Shown here one piece after another: positions 3,742 to 20,547 of a DNA stretch of 64,000 nt. A program made the translations under genes and the position numbers. This DNA is from Cyanobium sp. WAJ14-Wanaka (GTDB lineage Bacteria; Cyanobacteriota; Cyanobacteriia; PCC-6307; Cyanobiaceae): the NCBI RefSeq assembly GCF_024345375.1, contig NZ_JAGQAZ010000002.1, positions 434,001 through 498,000 on the forward strand, read 5' to 3'. How positions within the stretch are numbered: the first letter of the stretch is position 1; the number at the start of each line of letters is the position of its first letter. Under the pieces are notes generated by a model. It had not been told where the DNA came from and ran no database searches. It was given only the letters and a program-made list of their open reading frames with translations.

Positions 3742-3743
3742 AG

Positions 3744-5018
3744 CTACATCTCAGTAATCATTGGCTTTTCGTTCAAACGCCGAGAATCTACCTTGTGCAC
3801 GTCTCCGCGATACCCAGCCCAATGTTGCAGTTCAGGAATTGCAGTTACCAGCTCAATCCCAGCAAGATGCTCTCGCAACTCCTCTATCAGATTCCAGGGT
3901 AACACCAGCAGGGCATCAGCTTTCTGAGCAGCCAGTTGCTCTGGGCTTATCACTGGAATATGGCTGCCAGGTAGGTATTTATTCTGCTTGCTGGTGGCCC
4001 GATCAGCCACGGCAGCTAGCAGGTCTGAGCTGATACCGGCGTAGTTGAGCAGGGTGTTGCCTTTAGCTGCTGCGCCATAACCCAACACCCGTTTTCCTTG
4101 GCGTTTGGCCTGCAGCAGAAACTCCAGCAGACCGTGCTTGGCCGCCTCGGCCCGCTGCTGGAAACCGGCATAGGCCTCGATCGATTCCAGGCCGGCTTCC
4201 GCCTCAAGTGCCAAAACCTCCGCCACCGCTGCAGTTGGCTGCGCCGTGCCCCCATAGGCCAGCCACACCCGCAGGCTGCCGCCATGGGTGGCCAGCTGCT
4301 CCACATCCACCACCTCCAGCCTGCGCGCTGCGGCGATCAGCTGCACCACCTTGAGGCTCAGGTAGCTGTAGTGCTCGTGGTAGATCGTGTCGAACTGGTT
4401 GCCTGCCAGCAGCCGCAGCAGGTGGGGAAACTCAATGGAGGCGCGGCCGCTGGGTTTCAGCATCCTGGCAATACCGGCCACAAAATCGTTGATGTCAGGC
4501 ACGTGGGCCAGCACGTTGTTGGCCACCACCAGATCGGCCTGCTTCAGGTCGCTCGCCAGCTCCACCCCAAAGAACCGCTCAATGGTGGTGATCCCCTTCT
4601 CCCGGGCCGCTGCTGCCGTGGCCTGGGTGGGCTCGATGCCCAGGCAGGGGATACCTCGTTGCTGCACGTATTGGAGCAGGTAGCCATCGTTTGAGGCCAG
4701 CTCCACCACCAAGCTTTGGGGGCCCAGATCCAGCCGCGCCACCGCAGCCTCCACAAACCGCTCGGCGTGGGCGCACCAACTGCTAGATGTGCTCGAAAAA
4801 TAGGCGTAGTCGGCAGTGAATAGCTCCTCGGCCGATGCATGGGCTGGCAGCTGCACCAGCCAGCAGCTAGTGCACACAAACACCTGCAGCGGATAGGTAA
4901 TCTCTGGCAGTGCCAGCTGCTCCCGGCTCAAATAGGCGTTGCTGGGCGGCTGGTGGCCCAGGTCGATCACCGTGTGACCTAGGGGTGAGCCGCAATGGCG
5001 GCAGCGGTGCTGGCTCAT
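3744..5018 (-). CDS. NDP-hexose C-methyltransferase (three-domain, SAM-dependent)
   Basis: The 424 residues follow the layout of sugar C-methyltransferases such as TylC3. There is an N-terminal zinc-binding segment (CRHCGSPLG at residues 6-14 and CTSCWLVQLP near 49-58), a central class I SAM-binding domain (VVELASNDGYLLQ near 99, LGIEP near 121, ADLVVANNVLAHVPD near 158), and a C-terminal Rossmann-like domain (RVLGYGAAAKGNTLLNY). The IEFPHLLRLL and YHEHYSYLS stretches carry the Tyr and His residues typical of the sugar pocket. It would methylate a ring carbon of a 4-keto-6-deoxy sugar, giving a branched sugar. It overlaps the upstream epimerase gene by 4 bases, so the two are translationally coupled. 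Confidence 0.85.
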   Translation of the reverse strand: MSQHRCRHCGSPLGHTVIDLGHQPPSNAYLSREQLALPEITYPLQVFVCTSCWLVQLPAHASAEELFTADYAYFSSTSSSWCAHAERFVEAAVARLDLGPQSLVVELASNDGYLLQYVQQRGIPCLGIEPTQATAAAAREKGITTIERFFGVELASDLKQADLVVANNVLAHVPDINDFVAGIARMLKPSGRASIEFPHLLRLLAGNQFDTIYHEHYSYLSLKVVQLIAAARRLEVVDVEQLATHGGSLRVWLAYGGTAQPTAAVAEVLALEAEAGLESIEAYAGFQQRAEAAKHGLLEFLLQAKRQGKRVLGYGAAAKGNTLLNYAGISSDLLAAVADRATSKQNKYLPGSHIPVISPEQLAAQKADALLVLPWNLIEELREHLAGIELVTAIPELQHWAGYRGDVHKVDSRRLNEKPMITEM

Positions 5019-5563
5019 GGGAAAAATTTAAGGGTTGGCAACTGCAAATCCCGCTCGCTCATGCCCTGGGGCGGCAACGGCCAACTGATGGCCAACTGGG
5101 CGTCATCAAAGCGCACGCCGGTTTCAGCTTCTGGCACCCAGGCTCCGGAATGCAGATAAAGCAACTCACTGCTGGCTTCCAGCACCTGAAAGCCATGGGC
5201 ACAGCCCTCTGCGATAAGCAGGGCGTTGGATGCGGCTGCAGAAAGTTCCACGCCATGCCATTGGCCAAAGCTGGCTGAGCCTGGCCGCAGATCCACCGCC
5301 ACATCCCACACCCGGCCCCGCAGGCAGCGCACCAGCTTGGCTTCTGCATGGGGATTGGCCTGCAGGTGTAGGCCCCGCACACTGCCCACCGCTTCTGTGC
5401 GGCTGATATTCACCTGGGCAGTGGCGCGATCGCCCCAGGCCTCGGCAAAGACCGGCTCCTGGGCGCGGAAGGCATTGAGGAAGGCCCCACGTTGATCAGC
5501 GAAGGGCTGGCCCACCAGCTCGATCACACCGGCGATGGGGGTTGGGCGAGATTCAGTGGCCAT
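5015..5563 (-). CDS. dTDP-4-dehydrorhamnose 3,5-epimerase family protein (RfbC/RmlC-like)
   Basis: A 182-residue cupin of the RmlC family, close to the usual 180-190. NISRTEAVGSVRGLHLQ carries the catalytic-base histidine in RGLH. It is followed by RGRVWDVAVDLRPGS and by EGCAHGFQVL with the second conserved His. In this operon the substrate is expected to be the CDP-linked 4-keto-6-deoxyglucose made by the neighbouring dehydratase rather than a dTDP sugar. Epimerisation at C3 and/or C5, or simply enolisation that prepares C3 for methylation, is plausible. It overlaps the dehydratase gene by 11 bases and the methyltransferase gene by 4. Confidence 0.85.
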   Translation of the reverse strand: MATESRPTPIAGVIELVGQPFADQRGAFLNAFRAQEPVFAEAWGDRATAQVNISRTEAVGSVRGLHLQANPHAEAKLVRCLRGRVWDVAVDLRPGSASFGQWHGVELSAAASNALLIAEGCAHGFQVLEASSELLYLHSGAWVPEAETGVRFDDAQLAISWPLPPQGMSERDLQLPTLKFFP

Positions 5564-6665
5564 CGACGCGGTCCATTTGATAGGTCTCTAAATCGGCCAG
5601 GCAACACTCCAGGGGACTAGCCCCCTCCTGCACGGCTCGATACCAGTTCACCGTGCGCGCCACGGTGATGGCAAAGGTCCAGTGGGGCCGCCAGCCGAGT
5701 TGGTGGTGGGCTTTATCGATCTGCAGGTGCAGGCGACCAGCTTCATGGGGGGCATTGGGATCGGAGAAATCCCGCCAGCTGCCATGCCAATGCAGCAGGG
5801 CCTCCTCAATCAGGGCCTGCACGCTGCGGTTGGCCTCCAGCGCCGGACCAAAGTTGAAGGCACTGGTGTAGGGGTTGGCCGGCCCATGGGCCACAGCCAA
5901 TTGACCGGCCAGTTTCTCGGCCAGCAACAGGTAGGCACCAAGGGGCTCGAGCACGTGCTGCCAGGGTCGGGTGGCCTGGGGGTTGCGGAGCGCTATGGGC
6001 TCGCCCGCTGCAAGTGCACGCATGGCATCGGGCACGATCCGGTCGTCTGCCCAATCGCCGCCGCCGATCACGTTGCCGGCCCGGGCTGTGGCGATCGCCA
6101 GATGGGGGGTTTGGTGGCTGCCATCACCGCAAAAACTGGCCCGCCAGCTGGCGATGGCGATCTCAGCTGCAGCCTTGCTGGCGCTGTACGGATCATGGCC
6201 GCCGAGACGATCATCCTCGCGATAGCCGTAATCCCATTCCTGGTTTGCGTACACCTTGTCGGTGGTCACCATCACCACCACGCAGGGATGCTGCAGCGGT
6301 TTGAGGGCCTCGAGCAGGTGCAGCGAACCCTGCACATTGGTGGCCCAGGTGCCCAAGGGATCGGCGTAGCTGCGGCGCACCAGGGGCTGGGCGGCCAGAT
6401 GCAGCACAACTTCAGGCTGCACCTCAGCAGCGATTGCCGCCAGGCCAGCAGCATCGGCCAGATCAAGCAGGTGATGGCCCGCCAGCCGGGGGGCCAAATC
6501 GAGCTGATCAAATAGGCCTGGCGTGGTTTCTGGCGCCAGTGCCACCCCATGCACCTCAGCTCCGAGCTGGGCGAGCCAGAGGGCCAGCCAGCTGCCCTTG
6601 AAGCCGGTGTGACCCGTGAGCAACACGCGCCGGCCTTGCCAAAAGGCTGGATTCAGATTCACCAC
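5553..6665 (-). CDS. rfbG: CDP-glucose 4,6-dehydratase
   Basis: A 370-residue extended SDR that converts CDP-glucose to CDP-4-keto-6-deoxyglucose. Visible are the NAD-binding LLTGHTGFKGSWLALWL (residues 15-31) with the FKGSW signature typical of RfbG, VVMVTTDKVYANQEW with the Thr-Asp-Lys triad region, and [15 protein letters not shown] with the catalytic YxxxK. The AGNVIGGGDWADDRIVPD segment is also characteristic. It overlaps the cytidylyltransferase gene rfbF by 7 bases. RfbF followed by RfbG is the standard two-step entry to CDP-6-deoxy and CDP-3,6-dideoxyhexoses of O-antigens. No rfbH-type C3 dehydrase is present, so a 3-deoxy product is not indicated. Confidence 0.95.
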   Translation of the reverse strand: MVNLNPAFWQGRRVLLTGHTGFKGSWLALWLAQLGAEVHGVALAPETTPGLFDQLDLAPRLAGHHLLDLADAAGLAAIAAEVQPEVVLHLAAQPLVRRSYADPLGTWATNVQGSLHLLEALKPLQHPCVVVMVTTDKVYANQEWDYGYREDDRLGGHDPYSASKAAAEIAIASWRASFCGDGSHQTPHLAIATARAGNVIGGGDWADDRIVPDAMRALAAGEPIALRNPQATRPWQHVLEPLGAYLLLAEKLAGQLAVAHGPANPYTSAFNFGPALEANRSVQALIEEALLHWHGSWRDFSDPNAPHEAGRLHLQIDKAHHQLGWRPHWTFAITVARTVNWYRAVQEGASPLECCLADLETYQMDRVDGH

Positions 6666-7429
6666 AGCTTCCAGGGGGCCTGGCCATTGGCCCAGAGCTC
6701 CTCAAGGCGGGTGCGGTCGCGCAGGGTGTCCATCGGTTGCCAGAAGCCTTTATGCCGGTAGGCACTCAGCTGGCTTGCCGCCGCCAGCTGGGGCAACACA
6801 TCCCCTTCCCAGCTGGTGGCATCGCCAGCGATTCGATCCAGCGCCTCTGGCTCCAGCACAAAGAAACCGCCGTTGATCCAGGCGTTATCGCCATCGGGCT
6901 TCTCCTGAAACTGGCTCACCGCATCACCGTCCAAATGCAGCGCCCCATAGCGCCCCGGCGGCTGCACCGCCGTAAGCGTGGCCTGGCGGCCATGGTTCTG
7001 GTGATGGCCAATCAGGGCTCCAACATCCACATCTGCCAAGCCATCGCCATAGGTGAAGCAGAAGCTGCTGCCATCTAGATAGGGGCGCACCCGGCCCAGA
7101 CGTCCTCCGGTGTTACTCATTTCACCGGTGTCCACCAGCGTCACCTTCCAGGGTTCACTTTTTCGCTCATGCACCTCCATGTAGTTGTCTTTATCCATAT
7201 GGAAGGTGACATCACTGGTGTGTAGAAAATAATTGGCGAAATACTCCTTGATTAGATAGCCCTTATAGCCGCAGCAGATGATGAACTCATTGATGCCAAA
7301 ATAGCTATAGATCTTGAGAATGTGCCACAGGATTGGCTTGCCGCCCACTTCCACCATTGGCTTGGGTTTTAGGTGGGTTTCTTCAGATAGACGAGTGCCG
7401 AGGCCGCCGGCGAGGATTACGGCTTTCAT
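6659..7429 (-). CDS. rfbF: Glucose-1-phosphate cytidylyltransferase
   Basis: 256 residues, the usual RfbF length. The N-terminal nucleotidyltransferase signature is MKAVILAGGLGTRL, followed by KPKPMVEVGGKPILWHI. YGDGLADVDVGALIGHH has the metal-binding Asp pair, and WINGGFFVLEPEAL is typical of the family. It makes CDP-glucose from CTP and glucose-1-phosphate and is the first enzyme of the pathway encoded down to 2935. Its ATG overlaps the stop of a short upstream reading frame in an ATGA arrangement, hinting that a further gene once stood ahead of it. Downstream it overlaps rfbG by 7 bases. Confidence 0.95.
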   Translation of the reverse strand: MKAVILAGGLGTRLSEETHLKPKPMVEVGGKPILWHILKIYSYFGINEFIICCGYKGYLIKEYFANYFLHTSDVTFHMDKDNYMEVHERKSEPWKVTLVDTGEMSNTGGRLGRVRPYLDGSSFCFTYGDGLADVDVGALIGHHQNHGRQATLTAVQPPGRYGALHLDGDAVSQFQEKPDGDNAWINGGFFVLEPEALDRIAGDATSWEGDVLPQLAAASQLSAYRHKGFWQPMDTLRDRTRLEELWANGQAPWKLW

Positions 7430-9330: not shown

Positions 9331-10263
9331 ATGAATCCTCCGTCAACCCGATTGCTGGTAGTGCTCGGCTTGCCGGAACCCTCTCAGGATTCCAGCCCAG
9401 ATCCCGGCCTGGAACCGCTGCAGCGAGCCCTTGAGCTTTGCGGGGCCCCGTCTCTCTCGGCAGCTCTAGAGCCCATCCATCGCAAAGCCCTGGGTGCAGC
9501 AGGTGCCGCCTGGCAGGCCACTCGAGCCATCCCCAGTCGCTGGTTTGCCAGTGAAGCCAGCCACGCCCTTCTGCCTGAGCTCCAGAGTGCATTGCAGGCC
9601 CAGCTTCCACCCCAGGGCCTACGGGTGCTGCAGCTCAGTGGGCTTGAGCATCTATTGCCCCTTTGGCGGCTAGCCCTGGCCGAATTGCCTGTGCAGCCCG
9701 CCTATCTGTTGGTGCTGCGTCATCCACTTGAGGTGGCAGAAGCCCTGCGCCGAAGCCATGGCTGGAGCCGTGATCGCGGTCTGCTGGTGTGGCTGCAAAG
9801 CACCTTGGCCATGGAAGCCTCCAGTCGGGGTGCTGCTCGGGTGGTTGTGGAGCAGGAGCAGTTGCATTGGGATCCTGAGGGCGCCCTCGACCATCTGGAG
9901 CGCCAGCTGAATTTGCAGTTGCCTGAACGAAGCCATGAGCGGCTTCTGCAATGGGAAAGTGAGCAACCCCAGTCCCCGCTTGTTGCCGTCCCCAGTGTGC
10001 CCAGCTCCACCGAGAGCTCTCCCCTATTGCAAATGGCCATGCAGCTCCATGGCTGGCTTTTGGCGGAAAGTCGCGGCGAAGAGCGTCCGCGCATGATGCC
10101 CGAGGTGATCTGCCAGCAGCTCGCCTGGGCAGAAGCCCTCTATGGCCGCACCTTGGCAGAAGAGCAACAGCAACGTGTCCGTGCCGAGGCCGAGCTGACC
10201 CAGTTGCGGGGGCGTCGATTGGTGCGTTTCAGTCGTTGGTTGCGGCCCGATCAGGCGGCTTGA
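9331..10263 (+). CDS. Sulfotransferase-like protein lacking the PAPS P-loop
   Basis: 310 residues from ATG 9331; an in-frame TTG at 9322 is a weaker start. The middle part resembles the sulfotransferase family next door at 12899. LLVLRHPLEVAEALRRSHGW corresponds to the 3'-phosphate-binding segment (RNPLEVA in the relative), followed by the RGLLVWLQ helix. At the N-terminus, where GCHRSGTS should bind the 5'-phosphosulfate of PAPS, this protein has LVVLGLPEPSQDSS with no Gly-x-x-x-Ser/Thr loop. A C-terminal helical segment (LAEEQQQRVRAEAELTQL) looks coiled-coil. It is either an inactive relative acting as a partner or an enzyme with a different donor. It converges with the gene at 10273. Confidence 0.55.
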   Translation: MNPPSTRLLVVLGLPEPSQDSSPDPGLEPLQRALELCGAPSLSAALEPIHRKALGAAGAAWQATRAIPSRWFASEASHALLPELQSALQAQLPPQGLRVLQLSGLEHLLPLWRLALAELPVQPAYLLVLRHPLEVAEALRRSHGWSRDRGLLVWLQSTLAMEASSRGAARVVVEQEQLHWDPEGALDHLERQLNLQLPERSHERLLQWESEQPQSPLVAVPSVPSSTESSPLLQMAMQLHGWLLAESRGEERPRMMPEVICQQLAWAEALYGRTLAEEQQQRVRAEAELTQLRGRRLVRFSRWLRPDQAA

Positions 10264-10272
10264 TCCAATTGC

Positions 10273-11217
10273 TTAATTGAGCCGATCACAACTCTCGTTG
10301 CCCCCAATCGCTTGCGCCATCGCCCAGGCCTGCTTCCAGTGCCGCTCCAGATGCTTGGCTATTTCAGCTGAGCTGAAGTATTTCCAGGCACCATGGCTGC
10401 CAATTGCTGCCGCTGAATAGGTGCTCTCGCTGGCGAAGGCCCTCGCCACAGCAAGGGGAGCTGCTTGCCCATGGCGGCTTAAGTGTCGGCTAAAGAACAC
10501 ATCCTCCATTTCTTCTGGTCCGCTGGTGCTTGCTGAGTCCGAGCAGATCCGTTGCATCAGCTTTCGATCACGAATAGATAGACCCCCATTGCCATGTAGA
10601 TGGGGATAAACGTCTGGGTTTGGTGAGCCGTGGATTGCAGTATCCACCTTGAAAAATCCGCACAGTTCTCCCTGGCTGTTGCGCCGTTCGAAGTATTCAC
10701 TTTGCTGCCGCGGTAGGAACGGCGCCCCCAGGTAGCTGAAGTTAAAGAACCATTCCGGCAGTGGCTCCGCCAGTAGGGCATCTGTTTGGATAAACAACAA
10801 CTTTTCGTTGGGCATCGCCGCCCAAAACGGCTCCTGTTTCATCATCCTGTTGAAACTTGCGACATCGCCCAACCAGGTGCCAGGAACTAGCTCTTCAGCC
10901 ACCATCCAATAGGGCTCTAAGGCTGCTCCGCTGGCCTGCAGACAGGTCTGGGCTTCAGCCAGGCTGCCCCGATCGCAGATTAGGCACAAGCTAGTGCCCG
11001 ATGGGCACATCAGGGCCGTATTTAGCACCGTGAACAGCCACTGATTATCAATTCGGTTTTCAATTAGTACAGCCGCTTTGTCGCCTCCTCTATCCCGGTG
11101 GAGCAAGCCTCGACCTGCTAGTGGTAGTAACACTGACTCCAGCACCTGCCCACAGTGGCTTAGCCAGAGCTGTTGGCGATAGCGCAGTAGTGCAGGCAGG
11201 GCATCTGAGTCAGCCAT
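10273..11217 (-). CDS. DUF5672-type glycosyltransferase-like protein
   Basis: 314 residues. The central motifs LLFIQTDALLAEPLPEWFF, FSYLGAPFLP and HLHGNGGLSIRDRKLM are the pattern of DUF5672 proteins, which look like GT-A glycosyltransferases. The TDAL motif occupies the place of the DXD metal site, and NGGLS(I/L)R is a typical acceptor loop. VLIENRIDNQWLFTVLNTAL resembles the nucleotide-binding start. The catalysed step is unknown. The gene overlaps the upstream gene by 8 bases, giving a three-gene leftward operon from 12848 down to 10273. Confidence 0.65.
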   Translation of the reverse strand: MADSDALPALLRYRQQLWLSHCGQVLESVLLPLAGRGLLHRDRGGDKAAVLIENRIDNQWLFTVLNTALMCPSGTSLCLICDRGSLAEAQTCLQASGAALEPYWMVAEELVPGTWLGDVASFNRMMKQEPFWAAMPNEKLLFIQTDALLAEPLPEWFFNFSYLGAPFLPRQQSEYFERRNSQGELCGFFKVDTAIHGSPNPDVYPHLHGNGGLSIRDRKLMQRICSDSASTSGPEEMEDVFFSRHLSRHGQAAPLAVARAFASESTYSAAAIGSHGAWKYFSSAEIAKHLERHWKQAWAMAQAIGGNESCDRLN

Positions 11218-12079
11218 GATTTGCTGTTTCCATTGGATGCCTACGCCAGAGTTCGTCCTGGTGGCGCACCATCAAAAACCGGTAATCGGCTGGCCGCGTT
11301 TTCATTATCTTCAACACCGGCAGCAGTAAGCCGCTGCCCGCCTGCTCTAGGGGTCCGGAAAGCTGAAAATCTGATTGCCATTGCCTTTCTTGCCAATAGT
11401 GGGCTACTCGCATCGCCTGGCGGCGGCTGAGAAAGTAACAGCCAGAATGGGGATTGGTGGCCCGGTAAAATGCCACATCCCCCAGGGGCCAGGGGATGCG
11501 CAGCTCCTCCCCCGTATCCCAAAATAAATCGGGCCTTCCCCCATCCGGATCGCCAGAGAGGATCACATCTCCCTTTCCTGGAATGTGCTCGCAGCGATGG
11601 GGCAAGAAAGCGAAGCTGCCATCACTATTGCGATCCAGATAAAGCAGTTTGGCGAAAAATTGTGGGTCCTCTATTAGTAGGTCATCTTCCAGGTAGCCCA
11701 CAAGGTCGTAATCCTGGGCCTGCTCCAGCAGCCGGCGCGATGCCACCAGTGGCACCTGGGTGGGATCTGTTACTTGTGGATCCACAAGCTCAAGTCGAGG
11801 ATCGGTATTTATTTCCCCCGCCAGGCTTGCATCCGCTGGTGTGTAGAGTTGGATTGTGATCTCGGCACCTCCCTGGGTGGCCAGGGCCCTGGTCACCACC
11901 GCTTTGCCCTTGCCTAGGGATGCGTGGATCCAGTGCGTCCCGCCATGGCGATGCAGGTTGCCCAGGGTGGCTTGCTCCAGGGCTAGGCGCTTGGTGGCCC
12001 GTTTCGATTCGGTTTGCGATGAATACAGCGACCCATCCTTGGGGGCAAATACGTGGGGAATCGCCAGCAGCACCCGCAT
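11210..12079 (-). CDS. Uncharacterised glycan-locus protein, probable glycosyltransferase
   Basis: 289 residues from ATG 12079. I chose this start because MRVLLAIPHVFAP begins there and the preceding codons lie within the neighbouring sulfotransferase gene. The protein has an N-terminal strand-rich half and an acidic motif DYDLVGYLEDDLLIEDPQFF, whose LEDD resembles the DXD metal site of GT-A glycosyltransferases. FLPHRCEHIPG and ATNPHSGCYFLSRRQ follow and look like an acceptor-binding part. No family name comes to mind with certainty. It starts 4 bases after the sulfotransferase stop and overlaps the DUF5672 gene by 8, so it should act in the same glycan pathway. Confidence 0.55.
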   Translation of the reverse strand: MRVLLAIPHVFAPKDGSLYSSQTESKRATKRLALEQATLGNLHRHGGTHWIHASLGKGKAVVTRALATQGGAEITIQLYTPADASLAGEINTDPRLELVDPQVTDPTQVPLVASRRLLEQAQDYDLVGYLEDDLLIEDPQFFAKLLYLDRNSDGSFAFLPHRCEHIPGKGDVILSGDPDGGRPDLFWDTGEELRIPWPLGDVAFYRATNPHSGCYFLSRRQAMRVAHYWQERQWQSDFQLSGPLEQAGSGLLLPVLKIMKTRPADYRFLMVRHQDELWRRHPMETANHG

Positions 12080-12083
12080 CACC

Positions 12084-12848
12084 TCAGCCCTCCAGCCAGC
12101 CGCTGCAATCCCAACCCAGCATCTGCTCGAGTTGGCGGATTTCCGGCTCAAACATCTCGGTGAGCCTTTGCCTGGCTGCGCGTTCCATGGGCTGCTGGTA
12201 GCTGCCCACATGCCTATCCCTGGCTTCCACTCCAGTCAATGGCGCTATCCCTAAATAGTTACACACTCGATCCAGGCAGATTTGGGGGGAATGGCGCAGC
12301 TCCTCTTGGCGCAGCACCAACACCCGATCACGGCCAAAGAATCGCCATAACCGCCTTATTTGGCTTGCATAAAAGCCCCTGTCCGTGTAGGAATAAACCC
12401 GATGCTGTGCCGGCAGGGCACTGCGGCATCGTTCCGCTTCTTCAGTCAATGCATCACAGAAGCTGAGCTGCTCAGCGCCGCGTCCCAGCTCCATGGCCCA
12501 GTGGGAATAGGCCCGCTCAATCGGATTGCGTAAAATTACAATAATGTGCATTGCTGAATTATACGCCCAGATCCTCATTGGTGCCGGATCCCAATACATA
12601 TAAATCGGTGTGGCTTCTCCCCAGATGGCGTCCCTGGGGGCCGCAGCAAAATGTTTGTGGTAGCCATCGTGGCCAGCAGTGGCCATGCCATTGCCATCCC
12701 ATTCCTGGGATTCTTCGTCAAAAAAGTGCAATTCTTTTTGGGCTGGAATATATAATTTAGGATGGCTGCGCAGGTAATCCGCCAACGCGGTAGTGCCGGC
12801 TTTTTGGGTGCCACACACTAGGAATTCCACCCGCTTTTGGACTGGCAC
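12084..12848 (-). CDS. PAPS-dependent sulfotransferase
   Basis: 254 residues with both diagnostic sulfotransferase motifs. FLVCGTQKAGTTALADYL at residues 9-26 is the 5'-phosphosulfate loop (TQKAGTT). HIIVILRNPIERAYSHW, around residues 101-117, carries the 3'-phosphate-binding Arg and Ser. The KELHFFDEESQEWDG stretch, typical of heparan- or cytosolic-type sulfotransferases, lies between them. It transfers sulfate from PAPS to a hydroxyl or amine, here most likely of a surface glycan or its lipid-linked precursor in the cytoplasm. It is the first gene of the leftward trio and is divergent from the sulfotransferase gene at 12899, 50 bases away. Confidence 0.9.
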   Translation of the reverse strand: MPVQKRVEFLVCGTQKAGTTALADYLRSHPKLYIPAQKELHFFDEESQEWDGNGMATAGHDGYHKHFAAAPRDAIWGEATPIYMYWDPAPMRIWAYNSAMHIIVILRNPIERAYSHWAMELGRGAEQLSFCDALTEEAERCRSALPAQHRVYSYTDRGFYASQIRRLWRFFGRDRVLVLRQEELRHSPQICLDRVCNYLGIAPLTGVEARDRHVGSYQQPMERAARQRLTEMFEPEIRQLEQMLGWDCSGWLEG

Positions 12849-12898
12849 TAATCAGTCGGGTTGTTGCTTAGGATCCTGGTCTTCCAGCTTAGGCCTTG

Positions 12899-13930
12899 GT
12901 GTTTGTCACCGGCTGCCACCGTTCCGGCACCTCCCTACTTGCCTCACTGCTGGGGGATGTCCTTGGCCAGCGACGCGGCGACGATCTGCCGCCTGGCCCT
13001 GACAACCCCCGCGGTTTTTTTGAAAGCCGCCTGCTCACCGAGTTCAACGACGAGCTTCTCCACGCCCTGGGTGGTGATTGGAGCCTTCCACCACTTTTGC
13101 CACCTAGCTGGAGCGATCCACCTCTGTTGGATCTGATCAGTGGGGCCCGCGATCGCTTTGCCGCCTATGGCGAGCAGGGCCCTTGGCTTGATAAGGATCC
13201 GCGGCTCTGCATCACCCTGCCAGCCATTCAGCACCTGCTATTACGCCGGGTGCCCGTGGTGGTTGCCCTGCGCAATCCCCTAGAGGTTGCCTGTTCACTC
13301 CAGCTCCGCAATGGTTTTGCCCTGGAGCGGGGCCTGGCCCTCTGGTTTATCTACAACCATCACCTGGCAGCCACCCTCCAGCCTGCTGACCTTTTAATTA
13401 GTCAGGCTGAACTGATCGCCGCTCCCACCAACGGCCAGCTAGCTAGCCAGCTGTTAGCGGCCCTTGGCGGATTTCTTGAGGGCCATGGCCACCAGCCCCC
13501 CACTGCCCAAGCCTGGCAGCAAATGCTGGCCAATCGGGTGGATCCGGGCTTGAATCGGGCCGTAGCAGCCCTGCCGGCCAGCCCCGCGATGGCCAGCCTC
13601 CATCCTCGGCTGGTGGAGCTGGTCGAGGCGACATACCAGCAAGCTCTATGCGGTATTCGGGGCCACAGATCTGCCTTCTCCAGCCTGCCCCTGGAGGTCC
13701 TCCAGCTCTGCGCTAAGCACCAGCTTTGTGCCCCTGGGGCCAGCCTCCAGCAGCGCCTAAGCCAGCTCGAAACCCAGTGCGAGCAACTCACAACCCAATG
13801 CGAGTTGGATCAGGAGACCCTCCGGGCCATACGTGGCTCCAGCAGTTGGCAAATCACTGCTCCGCTTAGGTGGCTAAGCGCCCTGCTGCGTCGCCTGCTG
13901 GATCGCCGCCTGCTGGATCGCCGCCGCTGA
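12899..13930 (+). CDS. Sulfotransferase family protein with C-terminal coiled coil
   Basis: 343 residues from GTG 12899; an in-frame TAG at 12890 leaves only this or TTG 12896 as start. VFVTGCHRSGTSLLASLL at the very N-terminus is the PAPS P-loop, and VVVALRNPLEVACSLQLRNG, near residue 116, is the 3'-phosphate motif. From about residue 285 a heptad-like stretch (QRLSQLETQCEQLTTQCELD) leads to the tail RGSSSWQITAPLRWLSALLR, a short motif often seen at the ends of cyanobacterial polysaccharide enzymes. It is the first gene of a rightward run of overlapping genes ending in the Wzt/Wzm exporter. Its stop overlaps the next start by one base. Confidence 0.8.
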   Translation: MFVTGCHRSGTSLLASLLGDVLGQRRGDDLPPGPDNPRGFFESRLLTEFNDELLHALGGDWSLPPLLPPSWSDPPLLDLISGARDRFAAYGEQGPWLDKDPRLCITLPAIQHLLLRRVPVVVALRNPLEVACSLQLRNGFALERGLALWFIYNHHLAATLQPADLLISQAELIAAPTNGQLASQLLAALGGFLEGHGHQPPTAQAWQQMLANRVDPGLNRAVAALPASPAMASLHPRLVELVEATYQQALCGIRGHRSAFSSLPLEVLQLCAKHQLCAPGASLQQRLSQLETQCEQLTTQCELDQETLRAIRGSSSWQITAPLRWLSALLRRLLDRRLLDRRR

Positions 13931-15039
13931 TGCTGCAGCTGCTGCGTGAATGGCCCCCGGGCTACGGCGGCGTGGAGAGGGTGGCCCACTGCCTGGCTCT
14001 TGCCGGTGGCTCTGGCGACACCACCTTCTCCCTAACACCCGCCCCACCAGCAGCCGATCCCCTGCCGGTGCCCTATCGCCGCGTCCTCTTGCCCGCCTTG
14101 CCCCTTGGCCGGTTGCTTCTGGCCTTGCCCAGCAAAGCCCTGTTTCAACTATTGGCTGGCCGAGAGCCCCTGCTTGGCCACCTGCCCTGCCCCACCGTGC
14201 TGCTGCTGGTGCTAGTGGCCCGCCTGCTGCGCCCCCGCCGTCATATTTATATCTATTGGCATGCCTTCATCGAGCCCAGGCCTACCATCGCTGGTTGGTT
14301 GGAGGCTGTCTATCAGGCCTTGGCCTTGGCCTTGCTCAGATTTTTTCCGGTGCTCACCACCTCCCCTCCCCTCAGGCACCAGCTCATCCAATCTGGCCTG
14401 CCAGTGGCCCAGGTGACCTGTCTTCCCTGCTGCCTGCCCCCCCCCATCGAAGCCGCCTGCAATCAGATCCACCAGTGCCGCCTCCAGCAGCCAGAGGCAA
14501 GGCCCCTTGGCCGGCTGATCTCCATTGGCCGGCTCGACAGCTACAAGCGCATTGATTGGCTCTTGCAGGCCATCGCCTTCGCCCCCGCCGTAGGGCAGCT
14601 GGATTTGGTGGGTGATGGCCCGCTGCGGGGTCGTTTCGAAGCGCTGGCCTCCGAACTGGGCCTCAGTCAGCGGGTGGTTTTCCATGGCCGTTTGGCGGAG
14701 CAGGCCAAGCTGGATCTCCTATCCACTGCAGATCTTTTGGTGCTGCCCGCCGATCGCTGTAATGAAGCATTTGGCATTGTCCAGCTAGAGGCGATGGCCA
14801 GTGGCATCCCCTCCCTTGCCTTCGATTTGCCGCGCTCCGGCATGTTTTGGGTCAGCAATCTGCCCGCCCTTGGCTGGAGCGGCCGGCCCAGCGAATTGGC
14901 CGCCACCATCCAGCAACTGCTCAGCGATGCCCCGCGCCATCGCCTGGCTTGCCACCAGGCCCGCCGTCGCTACGACCAGTATTTCGCCTATCCGATCTGG
15001 CGGCGCCGCCAGACCCAGATTTTCTGCACCGATGGCTGA
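13930..15039 (+). CDS. GT4 glycosyltransferase
   Basis: 369 residues from ATG 13930, whose first base is the last base of the preceding stop (TGATG). The N-terminal loop PPGYGGVERVAHCLAL is the acceptor-side glycine loop of group 1 enzymes. RLISIGRLDSYKRIDWLLQA begins the donor half and EAFGIVQLEAMASGIPSLA holds the EX7E motif. It should add one hexose-type residue to the lipid-linked glycan at the cytoplasmic membrane. GC content is high and the genes on both sides overlap it, so expression is coupled. The sugar donor cannot be told from sequence. Confidence 0.85.
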   Translation: MLQLLREWPPGYGGVERVAHCLALAGGSGDTTFSLTPAPPAADPLPVPYRRVLLPALPLGRLLLALPSKALFQLLAGREPLLGHLPCPTVLLLVLVARLLRPRRHIYIYWHAFIEPRPTIAGWLEAVYQALALALLRFFPVLTTSPPLRHQLIQSGLPVAQVTCLPCCLPPPIEAACNQIHQCRLQQPEARPLGRLISIGRLDSYKRIDWLLQAIAFAPAVGQLDLVGDGPLRGRFEALASELGLSQRVVFHGRLAEQAKLDLLSTADLLVLPADRCNEAFGIVQLEAMASGIPSLAFDLPRSGMFWVSNLPALGWSGRPSELAATIQQLLSDAPRHRLACHQARRRYDQYFAYPIWRRRQTQIFCTDG

Positions 15040-16357
15040 CCCCCTCCCCCTGGCCCCAGGCCTGGGCGATCAGCGGGCCAGTGGCGCCGTGCTGGATTGC
15101 TGGCGCAGCGATGGCGCCGCCGCAGCGGCCCGACAATTAAAAATCCAGCTGGCAAAGCAGGATCGGCAGCAGGGCGGCTCCAGCGCCGATCCCCTCCTGG
15201 CGGAATTGGCGCTTCGGCTTGAGGGCAGGTCTGGACCCCGCTTGCTGGTGGATGGATTGTGGTTTTGCAGACCCTTTGGCGGCATCTCCCGGGTATGGGA
15301 GCAGATCTTGGACTGCTGGAGCCTGCCGGGGCTGGTTACAAATTCGGCCCCTGTGGCCTTGATTGAGCGCAACAGCCATTTGGCCCTAAGCGCCAGCTTC
15401 CCAAACCTTCAAGGCGCAGGCGTCGATCCCCTAGATCCTGAGGCGGTAGCTGCCCTGGCCCCAGAGAACTCGGCTTTATTAAAGGGCTGGCGGGCCGATG
15501 TGTTTATCTCCAGCTGGATCAGTAGTTCTGGACCAGAACGCCCCTCTTGCCCCGAGCTGGCCCTAGTCCACGATTGCCTGCCCGAGCGCTACGGCGTTGC
15601 CGCGCCCCTGGCCCAGTTGCGCCGGCGCTGGCTCAAGGGTGCCACCGCCCATCTGGCCGTGTCTGCTGCCACGGCCGCCGATTTGGAGGTGCTGCTTAGC
15701 CGCCCCACGGGCAGCCTCAGCTGGTGCCACCCCGCCCCTGCCCCCCTATTTGGTGCCCCTTTGCAGGGCCCTAGGGGCGATCGGCTCTGGGCCAAACTCA
15801 TCCAGCGCTCTGGCCTCCAGCAGCCCTACTTGCTCTTGCCCGCCACCAGTGCCATCGGCTCCTACAAAAACCCCGAGCTGGTGGCAGAGGCCCTGGCAGA
15901 TCCCCAGCTGGCTCCCCTCCAGCTTGTGCTCTGTGGCATTGCTGCCGAGCAGCGCTGCCGGGAGCTGGAGCAGCGCTTCCCACACCTGGGTGGTCGCTGC
16001 CTGGCGGCCGGTTTCACCGATCTCGAGCTAGCCCTTGCTTATCACCACGCCTTGGCCGTGGTAATCCCTAGCCGCGCCGAGGGTTTTGGCCTGCCCGCCG
16101 TGGAGGCCCTCGCCAGCGGGGCCACCGTGTTGGTGGCCGATAGCCCGGGCCTTAGGGAGGCCGGTGGTTCGGCCGCCCTGCGCTTCCATCCCCAGCGCCC
16201 TGGCGAGTTGGCGGCCCTGCTGGCCCTGTTGCTCGATCCCACCAGCGGCTGGCTCCAACCCCACCTGGCCTGCCGCCGCCAGAAACGGTTGGCCCCACTC
16301 CATGCCGACCTAATCGGCCTAGCCCTGCTGGCCCTGGCGCGCAGGTTGGCCCCATGA
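15032..16357 (+). CDS. GT4 glycosyltransferase
   Basis: 441 residues from ATG 15032, overlapping the previous gene by 8 bases. A longer open frame begins upstream but lies inside that gene. The first about 70 residues are an extra helical segment. The GT part starts at LLVDGLWFCRPFGGISRVW, with the GGISR loop common in WbaZ/Cap-like enzymes, then LALVHDCLPERYG and the donor half QPYLLLPATSAIGSYKNPEL. EGFGLPAVEALASGATVLVA carries EX7E. Its closeness to the exporter genes fits chain assembly before export. It overlaps the next GT gene by 4 bases. Confidence 0.8.
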   Translation: MADPLPLAPGLGDQRASGAVLDCWRSDGAAAAARQLKIQLAKQDRQQGGSSADPLLAELALRLEGRSGPRLLVDGLWFCRPFGGISRVWEQILDCWSLPGLVTNSAPVALIERNSHLALSASFPNLQGAGVDPLDPEAVAALAPENSALLKGWRADVFISSWISSSGPERPSCPELALVHDCLPERYGVAAPLAQLRRRWLKGATAHLAVSAATAADLEVLLSRPTGSLSWCHPAPAPLFGAPLQGPRGDRLWAKLIQRSGLQQPYLLLPATSAIGSYKNPELVAEALADPQLAPLQLVLCGIAAEQRCRELEQRFPHLGGRCLAAGFTDLELALAYHHALAVVIPSRAEGFGLPAVEALASGATVLVADSPGLREAGGSAALRFHPQRPGELAALLALLLDPTSGWLQPHLACRRQKRLAPLHADLIGLALLALARRLAP

Positions 16358-17448
16358 CCAGGCTGCCCCTGCTGTTCAACCTGCTGCCCTACCGGCCCGA
16401 ACCCACCGGTCTCAGCCGCTATGTGGAGCGCCTGTTGGCGGCCTGGCCCGGCGAATCCCTGCCCTGGCAGCTGCGCCTGGCACCCCCAGGCCATGGCCAG
16501 TTCAGCCAGAGCCCCCATTTGCCGACAAAGCCCTGCACTGGCCCCATGGGCTTGCTCCAGCGCTATGCCCTGGCCCAGCACGCCCTACCCCTGCGCCGGT
16601 TGCTTGCGGACCACTGGCCCGATCGCATCTACAGCCCCTACAGCGAATGGCTCTGGGCCCTGCCCCAGGTGCCCCAGGTGATCACCTGCCACGACCTCAC
16701 GCCCCTCCACTTCCCCAGCAGTTGCAGGGCCCATTGGCGTAGCCGGCTGCTGCTGCCAGCCCACTTTGAACGGGCTGCCCTGGTGGTGGCCATTAGCCAA
16801 AGCGTGGCCAACCAACTGGTGCAAACCGGTCTGCCCGCTCGCCGCATTGCCGTGGTGCCCAATGGCGTGGAGCCCGTGGCCGATCCGATCCAGGCCCCCG
16901 CCAGCCACGATTGCGTCGTGCTGGCCCGCCATGCCCGCAATAAAAATCTGGCCCTGGCTCTGAACGGTTTTGCGGCCCTGCTCAAGCGCAACCCCGATTG
17001 GCCCGGTCGGTTGCTGGTGGTGGGTGCCACGGATCGCTGCACATCTGCCCTGTTCAGGCAGCAGCGGCAGCTTGGTCTGGGCGAGAGGGTGCGCTGGATA
17101 TCTCCACTGCCACCAGAGCCCCTTGAAACCCTGCTGCGCCAAGCTTTTTGCCTTGTTTCCCCCAGCCTGATGGAGGGTTTTGATTACCCCCTGCTCGAGG
17201 CCCAGGCCCTGGGCCTGCCCACCCTGGCCAGCCGCATTCCCGTGCATCAGGAGCTGCATCAAGATGCGGCATTGCTGTTTGAGCTCCATGATCGCGGCGA
17301 TACAATGGCTCATCAGTTGCAGCGGCTCGACCGCGATCCTGCCCTTTGGCGACAGCTTTCTCAGGCGGGACTTCTCAACGCGGCGGCCCACACCAGCCAG
17401 CGCCAAGCAAGAGAGATCAACTCCCTTCTCCGGGATCCATTGCCCTGA
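16354..17448 (+). CDS. GT4 glycosyltransferase
   Basis: 364 residues, starting in an ATGA overlap with the preceding gene. The N-terminal part reads PEPTGLSRYVERLLAAWPG, followed by VPQVITCHDLTPLHFP. The middle has AISQSVANQLVQ and RRIAVVPNGVEPV. The donor-binding side reads CLVSPSLMEGFDYPLLEAQALGLPTLAS with EX7E, here EGFDYPLLE. This is a mannosyl- or rhamnosyltransferase-like layout, but the sugar is not predictable. It is the last glycosyltransferase before the exporter ATPase gene, about 20 bases upstream. Confidence 0.85.
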   Translation: MTRLPLLFNLLPYRPEPTGLSRYVERLLAAWPGESLPWQLRLAPPGHGQFSQSPHLPTKPCTGPMGLLQRYALAQHALPLRRLLADHWPDRIYSPYSEWLWALPQVPQVITCHDLTPLHFPSSCRAHWRSRLLLPAHFERAALVVAISQSVANQLVQTGLPARRIAVVPNGVEPVADPIQAPASHDCVVLARHARNKNLALALNGFAALLKRNPDWPGRLLVVGATDRCTSALFRQQRQLGLGERVRWISPLPPEPLETLLRQAFCLVSPSLMEGFDYPLLEAQALGLPTLASRIPVHQELHQDAALLFELHDRGDTMAHQLQRLDRDPALWRQLSQAGLLNAAAHTSQRQAREINSLLRDPLP

Positions 17449-17468
17449 GCCCCCTGTTGCACTTGCCC

Positions 17469-18209
17469 GTGTTGCGGCTTGAGGGCATTGGTCTGCAAAT
17501 TCCCGTATTCAGCTCCGAAACCCGCAGTCTTAAATCAGCCCTGCTGCGCTCAGTCACCGGAGGTCAGTTGCGCCGCCAGGGTGGCGGTGCGGTGATCACT
17601 GCACTGCACAATGTGAATTGTCAGATTCATGAAGGTGAACGCATTGCCCTGATTGGTCATAATGGAGCAGGTAAATCCACTTTTCTAAAGCTGATCTCGG
17701 GCATCTATATGCCGAGTTGTGGAAGATTTGAGCAACGTATTCGGGTTTTCCCGATGATTCATAAGAGCTTCATTACCAGTGGTGAGCTCAGCGGCCTGCA
17801 GGCCATAAAGGCCCACTATTTGATGGTCAATGGTAATCTCAAAGGTTTTGAGAGTTATTGCCAGGGTGTGGTGGAATTTTCCGGATTGGGTGATTTCATT
17901 CATTTACCAGTCAAGGCCTATAGCCAGGGTATGGCATCCCGTTTGCTTTTTTCGATGCTCACTGCCTGTACCCATGAATGCCTGGCTATAGATGAGGGTT
18001 TTGGCGCCGGAGATTCCAGCTTCTATGAGCAGGCCCAGCAGCGCCTTCAGGCTTTCATTGAATCTGCGGGCACCTTGATTTTGGCCTCCCATTCAGAGGC
18101 CCTGCTCAGGCAGTTTTGCGTGCGTGGATTGGTTTTTGAGCAGGGTTCGATTGTCTTTGATGGCAATCTTGAGGAGGCCCTGGAGCACTACCATCGGCCT
18201 AGGCCATGA
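17469..18209 (+). CDS. ABC polysaccharide/O-antigen exporter ATPase (Wzt/TagH/KpsT type)
   Basis: About 246 residues from GTG 17469; TTG 17457 and TTG 17463 are alternative starts, and no ATG is available before LRLEGIGLQIPVF. Walker A is IALIGHNGAGKSTFLKLISG, the signature region is VKAYSQGMASRLLFSML (less standard than YSSGM), and Walker B is CLAIDEGFGAGDSSF. The ITALHNVNCQIHEGERIALIG introduction is typical of Wzt and KpsT proteins. There is no C-terminal carbohydrate-binding domain as in E. coli O9a Wzt, so recognition of a chain-end cap is not expected. It powers export of a finished undecaprenol-linked glycan with the permease encoded next, overlapping by 4 bases. Confidence 0.85.
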   Translation: MLRLEGIGLQIPVFSSETRSLKSALLRSVTGGQLRRQGGGAVITALHNVNCQIHEGERIALIGHNGAGKSTFLKLISGIYMPSCGRFEQRIRVFPMIHKSFITSGELSGLQAIKAHYLMVNGNLKGFESYCQGVVEFSGLGDFIHLPVKAYSQGMASRLLFSMLTACTHECLAIDEGFGAGDSSFYEQAQQRLQAFIESAGTLILASHSEALLRQFCVRGLVFEQGSIVFDGNLEEALEHYHRPRP

Positions 18210-18988
18210 GAGTGCTCCAAACCCTATCAGATGGCTGGGCGCTGCGTCGGGTATGGCTTTTTACGGCCACTTCTCGTACTAAGGCTCGATTTGCCCGCAC
18301 CCTGCTGGGTAGTTTTTGGCTAGGCCTCTCCAATCTGCTGTCCATTGCCGTACTTGCGCTGGTATACGGCACTGTTTTCAAGGTCCAAGATTTCAACCAC
18401 TACGTGGTGTATCTCGGTCTTGGCCTAGTGATCTGGAATAGCTTGGCTGCGGCAATTAGCACTGCTCCAAATCTGTTTGAACATAATGCCGCCCACTTGC
18501 ATAACAATAATCTCAATCCAATTTTCTATACCCTTGAGGAATGGGCTTTCCAGGTTCAAACGTTTGCCCAGTCGTTTGCCTTGGTCTTGTTAGGTCTTTC
18601 TTTTTTTAAAATTAACCTTATTCCTAATTTGCTACTTGTGGGCTGGCTGCCCTTGATTAATTTGCTGCTGTTTTTGTATTGGCTTCCGGTATTTTTGTGC
18701 CTTGTGGGAGCCCGATACAGGGATTTGTATCAGCTTGTCCCAATAGTTTTGCAATTAGTATTTCTTCTTTCCCCCATCCTGTATGAGCAGAAAAATCTTG
18801 GCTCCCTGGCCTGGACAGCCGATTTAAATTTGCTCTATCAAGTGTTAAATCCTTTGCGCCGCTGTTTGATTGAGGGCTCACCGCCAGGCTGGATTGATCT
18901 GCTCCTGCTTCTAATAAACTTTGCTGGTATTTGGTTTGCCATCTCACTGCTTAATCGGGAGCGGCGCCACCTGCCTTTTTTAATCTAA
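18206..18988 (+). CDS. ABC-2 type polysaccharide export permease (Wzm type)
   Basis: 260 residues with about six membrane segments: SNLLSIAVLALVYGTVF, YVVYLGLGLVIWNSLAAA, FALVLLGLSFF, NLLLVGWLPLINLLLFLYWL, VPIVLQLVFLLSPILYE and LLLLINFAGIWFAISLL. The N-terminal RFARTLLGSFWLGLSNLL and the WNSLAAAISTAPNLF region match ABC-2 permeases of the Wzm/TagG family. The start overlaps the ATPase stop (ATGA). Together the pair forms one exporter for the glycan built by the upstream enzymes. Base composition drops in GC compared with the glycosyltransferases, as in many Wzm genes. Confidence 0.85.
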   Translation: MRVLQTLSDGWALRRVWLFTATSRTKARFARTLLGSFWLGLSNLLSIAVLALVYGTVFKVQDFNHYVVYLGLGLVIWNSLAAAISTAPNLFEHNAAHLHNNNLNPIFYTLEEWAFQVQTFAQSFALVLLGLSFFKINLIPNLLLVGWLPLINLLLFLYWLPVFLCLVGARYRDLYQLVPIVLQLVFLLSPILYEQKNLGSLAWTADLNLLYQVLNPLRRCLIEGSPPGWIDLLLLLINFAGIWFAISLLNRERRHLPFLI

Positions 18989-19023
18989 ATTTGCTTACCC
19001 TCGGCGAAATCCCGACTGGCTCA

Positions 19024-20547
19024 TCACTTGCTTAGTTGATCAGGCTTAACCTGCTCGCAGATTTTCCGGCGGAAGTCTTCTAGGATTGCAGCAGAGACGG
19101 TGTCGTAGCGGCTAAGTCGCCTTTGCCTTTCCGCCTGGGGATCGCCGATCCTTGCCATTTCAGCCTTGGCGATTTGCCCCATGGCTTCTGCCCAGGTTGT
19201 TGGATCGAGGGTGTCGCACAGCCAAATCAGCTCCCTGAAATCTTGGCTTGCTTGGATTTCCCGGTGGGCCACAGAAGGGCTGGCGATGACCGGTGCACCA
19301 ATGCAGGCGCCATCGAGCACTGGGATTCCGAAGCCCTCCACCAAAGAAGGACTGATGACCGCCATGGCATGTAAAAATAAATTTGATTTAGTGGCTTCGT
19401 CGATATAGCCAGTTAGCAGTACAGATTCATCGGCTTGCTTTGCGACTTCCCTGCTATAGGAGTCTTTTTTAAGCATTCCAGTCACGCAGAGCCGGATTCC
19501 ATGTTCAGCCAGGCCTGAGATGCGGAACGCCTTAACCGCAAATAAGAGGTTCTTCCTGGGCTCCACTGAGGAATTAAATAGAAGATATCGAAATGGAACC
19601 AACTCGCCATGGTGATTTTTTGTTCGCAGCGATGGTCTCAAAACTTTTTGTTCCAGTAGCCCTCGGTGCTCCTTTGCAGGAAATTTTAGCGATGGGGGCT
19701 GTAGAATCACTATGCCGCCAGCATCATTCGCGGATCCATAGGCCTGTTCAAATTTCTTGCGGGTTGCCTGTGATACATACAACTTTCTGGCCGGTAGACA
19801 GCTGTTTAGCCGCTGGCCAAAATTAGCTACATGATCACTAGTTTGTACATATTCGAGGGGAATCAAATCATGCACAGTTTGAACAAGACAGCCTTTTCCC
19901 TCAACTCTGATGTTGATCGGGCAGGTGGTGATTAGCCCATCAAATTCATTGCCCAACTTGATTGGTAGGGATGATGGGCGGCGGGCAAGTGCTCGCCGTG
20001 AGGCATTCAAGTAGAGATAGCGGGCACACAGGATGCCATCGAGATTTCCAAAATAGCTCAGCTTTTCCTGTCGGAAATAGGGGCTGTCGAATTGCTCCAA
20101 TAAATTTACCTTCACCATTGCGTCAGTGGCATAATTGCGGTGCGCCAGCCAATCCAAGATCTCCAAGAGTCTCAGCCATTTTTTGTGCAGCCTTGCCAAG
20201 GCCTGCCACTTGCTGAGCTTTGTTTCCCAATAGGGGCTGTGCAGCCAATTGTGGCCCTCCATTAAGCCCTCCATTACTCGAGCTGCATAGATCAGGTCGC
20301 AGGCCCGCTTGGGCAGATTTTTGTAGACAGATTTCTCAAGCCTTGGCTCAAAGTCCGTGAGCAGCCAAATCTCAGCACCAGAATCCTTTAGGGCCTTCAG
20401 CATGGCCTTGCTGAAAACCGCAATGCCCCGATGCTCCCTCTGCTGTAGATCCAGATCTGTCACCAGCAGCCTCAAACCCCTCAGGGGCTGGCCCATCGGC
20501 GCCGGATCTGCAGAAGGGGAGTTTTCCTGCTGAACTTCCTCCGGCAC
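19024..20547 (-). CDS. GT4 glycosyltransferase, long form
   Basis: 507 residues. LLVTDLDLQQREHRGIAVFSK is the N-terminal glycine-containing loop. GCLVQTVHDLIPLEYVQTSD and FRYLLFNSSVEPRKNLLFAV mark the middle and the donor half. SPSLVEGFGIPVLDGACIGAPVIA is the EX7E region, with Asp in place of the second Glu (EGFGIPVLD). Such a change occurs in some GT4 enzymes but could affect donor binding. About 100 extra residues between the halves make it longer than usual. It is convergent with the Wzm gene and faces away from tRNA-Gly, so it has its own promoter in the 150 bases before the tRNA. Confidence 0.75.
   Translation of the reverse strand: MPEEVQQENSPSADPAPMGQPLRGLRLLVTDLDLQQREHRGIAVFSKAMLKALKDSGAEIWLLTDFEPRLEKSVYKNLPKRACDLIYAARVMEGLMEGHNWLHSPYWETKLSKWQALARLHKKWLRLLEILDWLAHRNYATDAMVKVNLLEQFDSPYFRQEKLSYFGNLDGILCARYLYLNASRRALARRPSSLPIKLGNEFDGLITTCPINIRVEGKGCLVQTVHDLIPLEYVQTSDHVANFGQRLNSCLPARKLYVSQATRKKFEQAYGSANDAGGIVILQPPSLKFPAKEHRGLLEQKVLRPSLRTKNHHGELVPFRYLLFNSSVEPRKNLLFAVKAFRISGLAEHGIRLCVTGMLKKDSYSREVAKQADESVLLTGYIDEATKSNLFLHAMAVISPSLVEGFGIPVLDGACIGAPVIASPSVAHREIQASQDFRELIWLCDTLDPTTWAEAMGQIAKAEMARIGDPQAERQRRLSRYDTVSAAILEDFRRKICEQVKPDQLSK

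Follow-up and report, generated by a model that had tools for sequence, protein, structure and literature searches.

Sulfotransferase genes have been described in ATP-binding cassette (ABC) polysaccharide clusters of several bacteria, and we compared these systems with a locus of Cyanobium sp. WAJ14-Wanaka in which sulfotransferase-like genes adjoin a Wzm/Wzt exporter. The locus lies in a 64,000-nucleotide stretch (hereafter the window; contig NZ_JAGQAZ010000002.1, positions 434,001 to 498,000) of a 2.14 Mb genome. It extends over 9331-20547, somewhat beyond the interval of 9331-18988 given in an initial annotation, whose genes and coordinates agreed with the open reading frames.

The idea of a sulfated, ABC-exported glycan is already known. 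The main text of Maeda et al. 2021 (PMC8205485) states that sulfotransferase genes of cyanobacteria are found in polysaccharide clusters of the ABC type, which is also the arrangement here; the initial annotation's contrast, that sulfated polysaccharides of cyanobacteria mostly take other export routes, is thus weaker than claimed. The same main-text passages mention no picocyanobacterial locus and no sulfotransferase (ST) fused to Wzt. The synechan (Xss) system of Synechocystis PCC 6803, as described there (PMC8205485), likewise has two intact sulfotransferases and several glycosyltransferases, but it uses Wzx/Wzy and a polysaccharide copolymerase (PCP), whereas the window cluster uses Wzm/Wzt; no gene among the ten in the interval had a Pfam match to Wzx, Wzy or PCP. 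For Vibrio sp. KMM 8419 and Cobetia marina KMM 1449, sulfated capsules that leave through an ABC exporter and have sulfotransferase genes in their clusters have been proposed (PMC11641403, PMC11766843). As these reports describe them, the capsules differ from our case in having a KpsDME/KpsT exporter of group 3 type, genes for 3′-phosphoadenosine 5′-phosphosulfate (PAPS) within the cluster and a chemically known structure.

A second group of relatives comprises the terminated O-antigen systems with WbdD or WbbB (E. coli O9a; K. pneumoniae O3, O4, O7 and O12). They share Wzm/Wzt export with our locus, and WbdD, the terminator of E. coli O9a (PMC11231755), is described as a modifying enzyme followed by a coiled coil and a C-terminal amphipathic helix. 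Their modifying enzymes are a kinase/methyltransferase or a 3-deoxy-D-manno-oct-2-ulosonic acid (Kdo) transferase, whereas ours is a sulfotransferase, and their Wzt has a carbohydrate-binding module, whereas none was found on ours. As far as our literature searches show, two features are new: the fusion of a sulfotransferase to Wzt, and the predicted WbdD-like plan of the sulfotransferase ST3 (cap-type enzyme, coiled coil, amphipathic tail). The literature searched on sulfotransferases with Wzt yielded no such fusion by title or abstract, and a search for a sulfotransferase with WbdD returned nothing.

Sulfotransferases and exporter of the window locus

The locus consists of two packed runs of genes that diverge from a short gap (12848 to 12899). 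Rightward, the genes ST3-GTa-GTb-GTc-Wzt-Wzm abut or overlap, as had been noted for 12899 to 18988 and as their start and stop positions bear out: the ATG of GTa overlaps the ST3 stop at 13930, the ATGs of GTb, GTc and Wzm lie at 15032, 16354 and 18206, Wzt starts directly past 17448, and Wzt and Wzm overlap by 4 bases. Leftward, ST2, LEDD and a DUF5672 gene run from 12848 to 10273, and a further gene, ST1, starts at 9331 and faces them.

We consider it probable that this locus makes a sulfated glycan, with PAPS-dependent sulfation by ST2 and ST3 in the cytoplasm followed by export through Wzm/Wzt. A lipid-linked surface polysaccharide would be assembled on the cytoplasmic side of the inner membrane by GTa, GTb, GTc and, probably, GTd, LEDD and the DUF5672 protein; ST2 and ST3 would transfer sulfate from PAPS to the chain in the cytoplasm; and the short Wzt, with Wzm, would then export the sulfated chain. 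Wzm/Wzt transporters export a chain that is assembled in the cytoplasm and PAPS is cytoplasmic, so sulfation would come ahead of export. The genome encodes an adenosine 5′-phosphosulfate (APS) kinase outside the cluster, and PAPS can therefore be made. Beyond the gene identities, fold assignments, conserved co-location and domain fusions observed here, we infer that sulfate is transferred onto the cluster's own glycan before export. This order of events had already been proposed from the sequence, and the kinship of ST2, the fold of ST3, the APS kinase and the fusions make it the best-supported reading, with the reservation that ST1 lacks the motifs. The accompanying label of O-antigen is not supported, as the product is not distinguishable from a capsule or another surface glycan. 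Picocyanobacterial surface glycans meet phages, grazers and seawater cations; if the proposal is true, a sulfated glycan exported by the ABC route would determine the charge of the surface and how it is recognized.

ST2 (12084..12848, minus strand) was identified as a PAPS-dependent carbohydrate sulfotransferase and is the sole one of the three ST genes to pass the Pfam cut-offs (PF13469, 42.0 bits; PF00685, 39.8 bits). Its best sequence relative in the PDB is the bacterial sulfotransferase 3rnl (7.8e-30), and it also matches the heparan sulfate enzymes 3-OST-3 (7.4e-12) and NDST-1, an N-sulfotransferase (6.5e-11). The motifs QKxGTT, KExhxF and LRxPxxRxxS are kept in an alignment of 35 sequences, so that both the 5′ and the 3′ phosphosulfate-binding motifs (5′-PSB and 3′-PSB) are present. 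Judged by sequence, ST2 is a clear relative of the heparan-sulfate sulfotransferases, whose substrates are polysaccharides.

ST3 (12899..13930, plus strand; 343 aa) is recognized by its motifs and fold. GCHRSGTS, KDPR and LRNPLEVACS are intact, and GxHRSGTS is present in 40 of 47 rows of the ST3 family. The structural model (pLDDT 85.6, built from 11 aligned sequences) gave 11 top Foldseek rows that were all sulfotransferases (probability 0.98-1.00), with a best E of 3.8e-3 and no match at E<=0.001. In VIA-align, all 50 matches listed were sulfotransferases, the best being TPST1 (Z 14.5, rmsd 3.9, 208 aligned). A sequence profile searched against the PDB gave weak rows only, three of six of them to sulfotransferases (E 0.04 to 0.76). 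ST3 is thus modelled as folding like PAPS sulfotransferases, with the PAPS-binding motifs kept. A nucleotide or shikimate kinase was considered and rejected; such chains appeared in Foldseek under probability 0.5, after the 11 sulfotransferase rows.

The initial annotation had counted three sulfotransferase-like genes, and two of them, ST2 by Pfam and ST3 by fold and motifs, are likely enzymes. ST1 (9331..10263, plus strand; 310 aa) has zero Pfam or NCBIfam matches and is a remote, degenerate homologue of ST3 (ST3 profile E 3e-29) in which the 5′ motif GxHRSGTS and KDPR are absent. It has a predicted C-terminal coiled coil (score 1.42; coiled-coil scoring here is COILS-type). Its single orthologue among 300 Cyanobiaceae genomes, in another genus (G253, L250:1489-3364), is 61% identical, likewise lacks both motifs and is convergent with a LEDD-type gene, as in the window. 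Between the two, dN is 0.33 and dS 2.0, the latter close to saturation; the comparison suggests that the gene has been kept. ST1 is probably not catalytic; it is a motif-less homologue, perhaps a scaffold.

The exporter consists of Wzt, the ATPase (17457..18209, plus strand, start approximate with the frame open from 17346; PF00005, 58.5 bits), and Wzm, the membrane subunit (18206..18988, plus strand; PF01061, 37.1 bits); both score over the Pfam cut-off and share one operon. The closest NCBIfam families for both subunits are those of the Klebsiella galactan exporter, but the window scores are far under the equivalog cut-offs (Wzt, NF050108, 198 bits against 400; Wzm, NF050109, 76.6 against 380). 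At about 250 aa, Wzt stops after its ATPase domain; the Pfam scan found no C-terminal carbohydrate-binding domain of the kind seen in terminated systems. Elsewhere, at L139 (5680-7053, minus strand) and similarly at L140, L141, L151 and L152, Wzt is about 455 aa long with an N-terminal extension of about 200 aa, and these loci are without sulfotransferases; the L139 extension, from the sole long Wzt scanned, has a weak DUF4214 match. Weak Wzt matches in proteins of about 1000 aa are presumably UvrA.

Conserved co-location and domain fusions

Among the 300 Cyanobiaceae genomes, Wzm occurs in 81 (E<=1e-10), LEDD in 58 and ST3 in 77. Sixteen genomes, the window's own among them, have a close orthologue of LEDD (E below 1e-100). 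ST2 adjoins LEDD on the same strand, with a gap of at most 171 bases, in 14 of these; in the remaining two, the contig ends in one and ST2 lies 7.9 kb away in the other. In 8 of the 16 genomes all five genes (LEDD, ST2, ST3, Wzt and Wzm) lie in a stretch of at most 20 kb, and the layout recurs beside secA in other Cyanobiaceae. Synechococcus WH7803 is among the eight (its locus spans 136900-157751 of CT971583.1) and CRISPR loss-of-function mutants have been reported there (PMC10651935), so the question of sulfation is testable.

We then related ST3-type genes to Wzm in 74 genomes, which hold 78 Wzm loci between them (Wzm matches under 120 bits were dropped, as were four weak ST3 matches in G085, G069, G075 second and G279 second). 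At 34 of these 78 loci an ST3-type gene is found no more than 20 kb from Wzm, a count from which broken contigs hide some pairs. By genome, 39 of 74 with Wzm and 36 of 226 others have an ST3-type gene (Fisher p 2e-9, kinship ignored). Where both genes share a contig whose size was to hand (13 Wzm loci), 12 pairs fall within 20 kb against 0.40 expected, again with kinship ignored. The proximity of ST3-type genes to Wzm is beyond chance.

The two functions are also joined in single proteins. In four of the 300 genomes (G068, G089, G132 and G264; loci L145, L146, L158 and L159), one open frame directly before Wzm encodes an N-terminal ST3-type domain, with HRSGTS and the 3′ motif, and a C-terminal Wzt. 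An assembly error is unlikely, because three of the four fusions are on contigs of 2.5-3.0 Mb; the G089 and G132 proteins are 62% identical over residues 3-569 of 572. In a search elsewhere in the phylum (a 386-genome sample), G089 was the only full-length match, and eight others covered the ATPase half alone. ST-GT2 fusions of 820-960 aa are found at L117, L121 and L134, and the reverse order, GT2-ST, at L107. Together the ST-Wzt and ST-GT2 fusions are the best evidence that the exported glycan is the substrate of the ST domain. With the sulfotransferase fused to Wzt, modification of a glycan would be joined to its transporter in one protein.

These data bear on a different explanation, in which the sulfotransferases act on another target, such as a glycolipid, a core sugar or a protein, and share the island with the exporter by chance or through horizontal transfer. 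The island is one of surface genes with an IS481 transposase nearby, ST1 is degenerate, and at one of the 13 loci (G115) the ST3-type gene is 1.26 Mb from Wzm. However, the synteny is kept across genera and the ST domain is fused to both Wzt and GT2, and we regard this explanation as quite unlikely.

Several other observations weigh against sulfation of the exported glycan by ST2 and ST3. ST3 scores 19.7 bits against PF13469, under the cut-off of 27, and the cluster has no gene found for PAPS synthesis, unlike those of Vibrio KMM 8419 and Cobetia. Of the 78 Wzm loci, 44 lack an ST3-type gene on their contig within 20 kb, and none was found at the g56 loci examined; sulfation is therefore not needed for the exporter generally. 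Four ST3-type relatives have HNSGTS in place of HRSGTS; these domains (L101, L106, L110 and L122) lie in proteins of 724-756 aa adjoining ST2, which are possibly altered or inactive enzymes. Finally, the Aeromonas salmonicida ABC O-antigen cluster is described as having an open reading frame with a sulfotransferase domain, yet its O-antigen is without sulfate (PMC4483657). ST2 and ST3 could by analogy be non-functional or use another donor, leaving the glycan unsulfated, and the motif loss in ST1 and the HNSGTS relatives fits such a course. The motifs of the window ST2 and ST3 are intact, however, as is GxHRSGTS in most ST3-family rows, which makes an unsulfated product very unlikely in our estimate.

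The predicted C-terminal plan of ST3

Past its catalytic domain, ST3 has a predicted coiled coil at residues about 280-314 (13736..13840, plus strand; COILS-type score 1.66), behind which come SSSWQITAPLR and an amphipathic segment up to 13927. The model places helices at 283-313 and 315-342, and the hydrophobic moment of the tail reaches 0.60. Among standalone ST3 proteins, an N-terminal ST domain is followed by a coiled coil in 10 of 13 and by an S-x-SW-x-x-T-x-P-x-R tail in 10 of 13. No coiled coil was predicted in the controls Wzm (0/49), LEDD (0/16) and ST2 (0/18), nor in GTa, GTb, GTc or the DUF5672 protein; the counts in other control families were 1/47 for Wzt, 2/25 for GTd and 13/30 for SecA.

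WbdD (PMC11231755, as described there) has catalytic domain, coiled-coil ruler and amphipathic helix in the order predicted for the parts of ST3, and a sulfate cap is therefore possible. ST3 would then be a terminator: sulfate would cap the growing glycan at its non-reducing end, the coiled coil would set chain length, and either the sulfated end or ST3 itself, which is fused to Wzt in some species, would direct the chain to the exporter. The standalone plan, the lack of a predicted coiled coil in the Wzm, LEDD and ST2 controls and the four ST-Wzt genomes agree with a terminator, but the terminated systems described in PMC11231755 bear a carbohydrate-binding module on Wzt that the Pfam scan did not find here. 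Moreover, the ST3 coiled coil is short, the ST-GT2 fusions have none predicted, and of the 31 long proteins in the ST3 family a single ST-Wzt is predicted to contain a coiled coil. On balance a terminator role for ST3 is doubtful. By the same analogy sulfate may be a chain-end mark; the fuller proposal, that the glycan belongs to a new class of terminated, ABC-exported chains which the coiled-coil sulfotransferase measures and caps, and that in some picocyanobacteria ST-Wzt couples sulfation to export in place of the carbohydrate-binding module, seems to us unlikely. An O7-like plan of K. pneumoniae (cap enzyme, coiled coil, glycosyltransferase) was considered for the ST-GT2 fusions and set aside, as no coiled coil is predicted in them.

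Glycosyltransferases and flanking genes

LEDD (11210..12079, minus strand; 289 aa) had been left as an unknown LEDD-motif protein; it indeed has no Pfam family match, but it can now be modelled as a putative metal-dependent GT-A glycosyltransferase. A sequence search against the PDB gave no match at E<=1, and we used fold comparison instead. The AlphaFold model (pLDDT 92.8) matched GT-A-type enzymes among the matches listed, the best being B4GALNT1 (Z 13.6, rmsd 3.4, 191 aligned), while Foldseek gave E 1.8e-6 at a TM of about 0.4. E131, D132 and D133 (the EDD of residues 131-133) are invariant in all 38 aligned sequences. With this fold and the invariant EDD, LEDD is therefore most likely a glycosyltransferase. 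A genome scan found 188 stretches encoding relatives, and the 80 kept come from cyanobacteria, Planctomycetota, Verrucomicrobia and others. The same genome has a second LEDD-type gene, 30% identical and about 73 kb upstream of the first (G000:C2:371958-372770, L154).

The DUF5672 gene (10273..11217, minus strand; PF18922, 72.6 bits, cut-off 24.4) adjoins LEDD in several conserved loci, and its product is possibly another glycosyltransferase. The literature found for this family names it in an unrelated context only.

Three GT4 enzymes had been recognized, namely GTa (13930..15039; PF00534, 74.7 bits), GTb (15032..16357; PF00534, 55.5 bits) and GTc (16354..17448; PF13692, 66.6 bits), all on the plus strand. 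A fourth GT4 gene, GTd (19024..20547, minus strand; PF13692, 53.9 bits), is located past Wzm; it is conserved together with the cluster and keeps its position in many loci. Beyond GTd come tRNA-Gly and then secA.

To the left, window positions 2935-7429 (minus strand) encode a glucose-1-phosphate cytidylyltransferase (TIGR02623), a CDP-glucose 4,6-dehydratase (TIGR02622), an rmlC-like epimerase, a C-methyltransferase (PF08484) and an NAD epimerase. This block is a pathway to a cytidine diphosphate (CDP)-linked, probably branched, deoxysugar, which may supply the glycan of the sulfotransferase/exporter cluster. The left edge of these sugar genes is marked by the IS481-family transposase (1949-2851, minus strand; 195 bits against a cut-off of 224).

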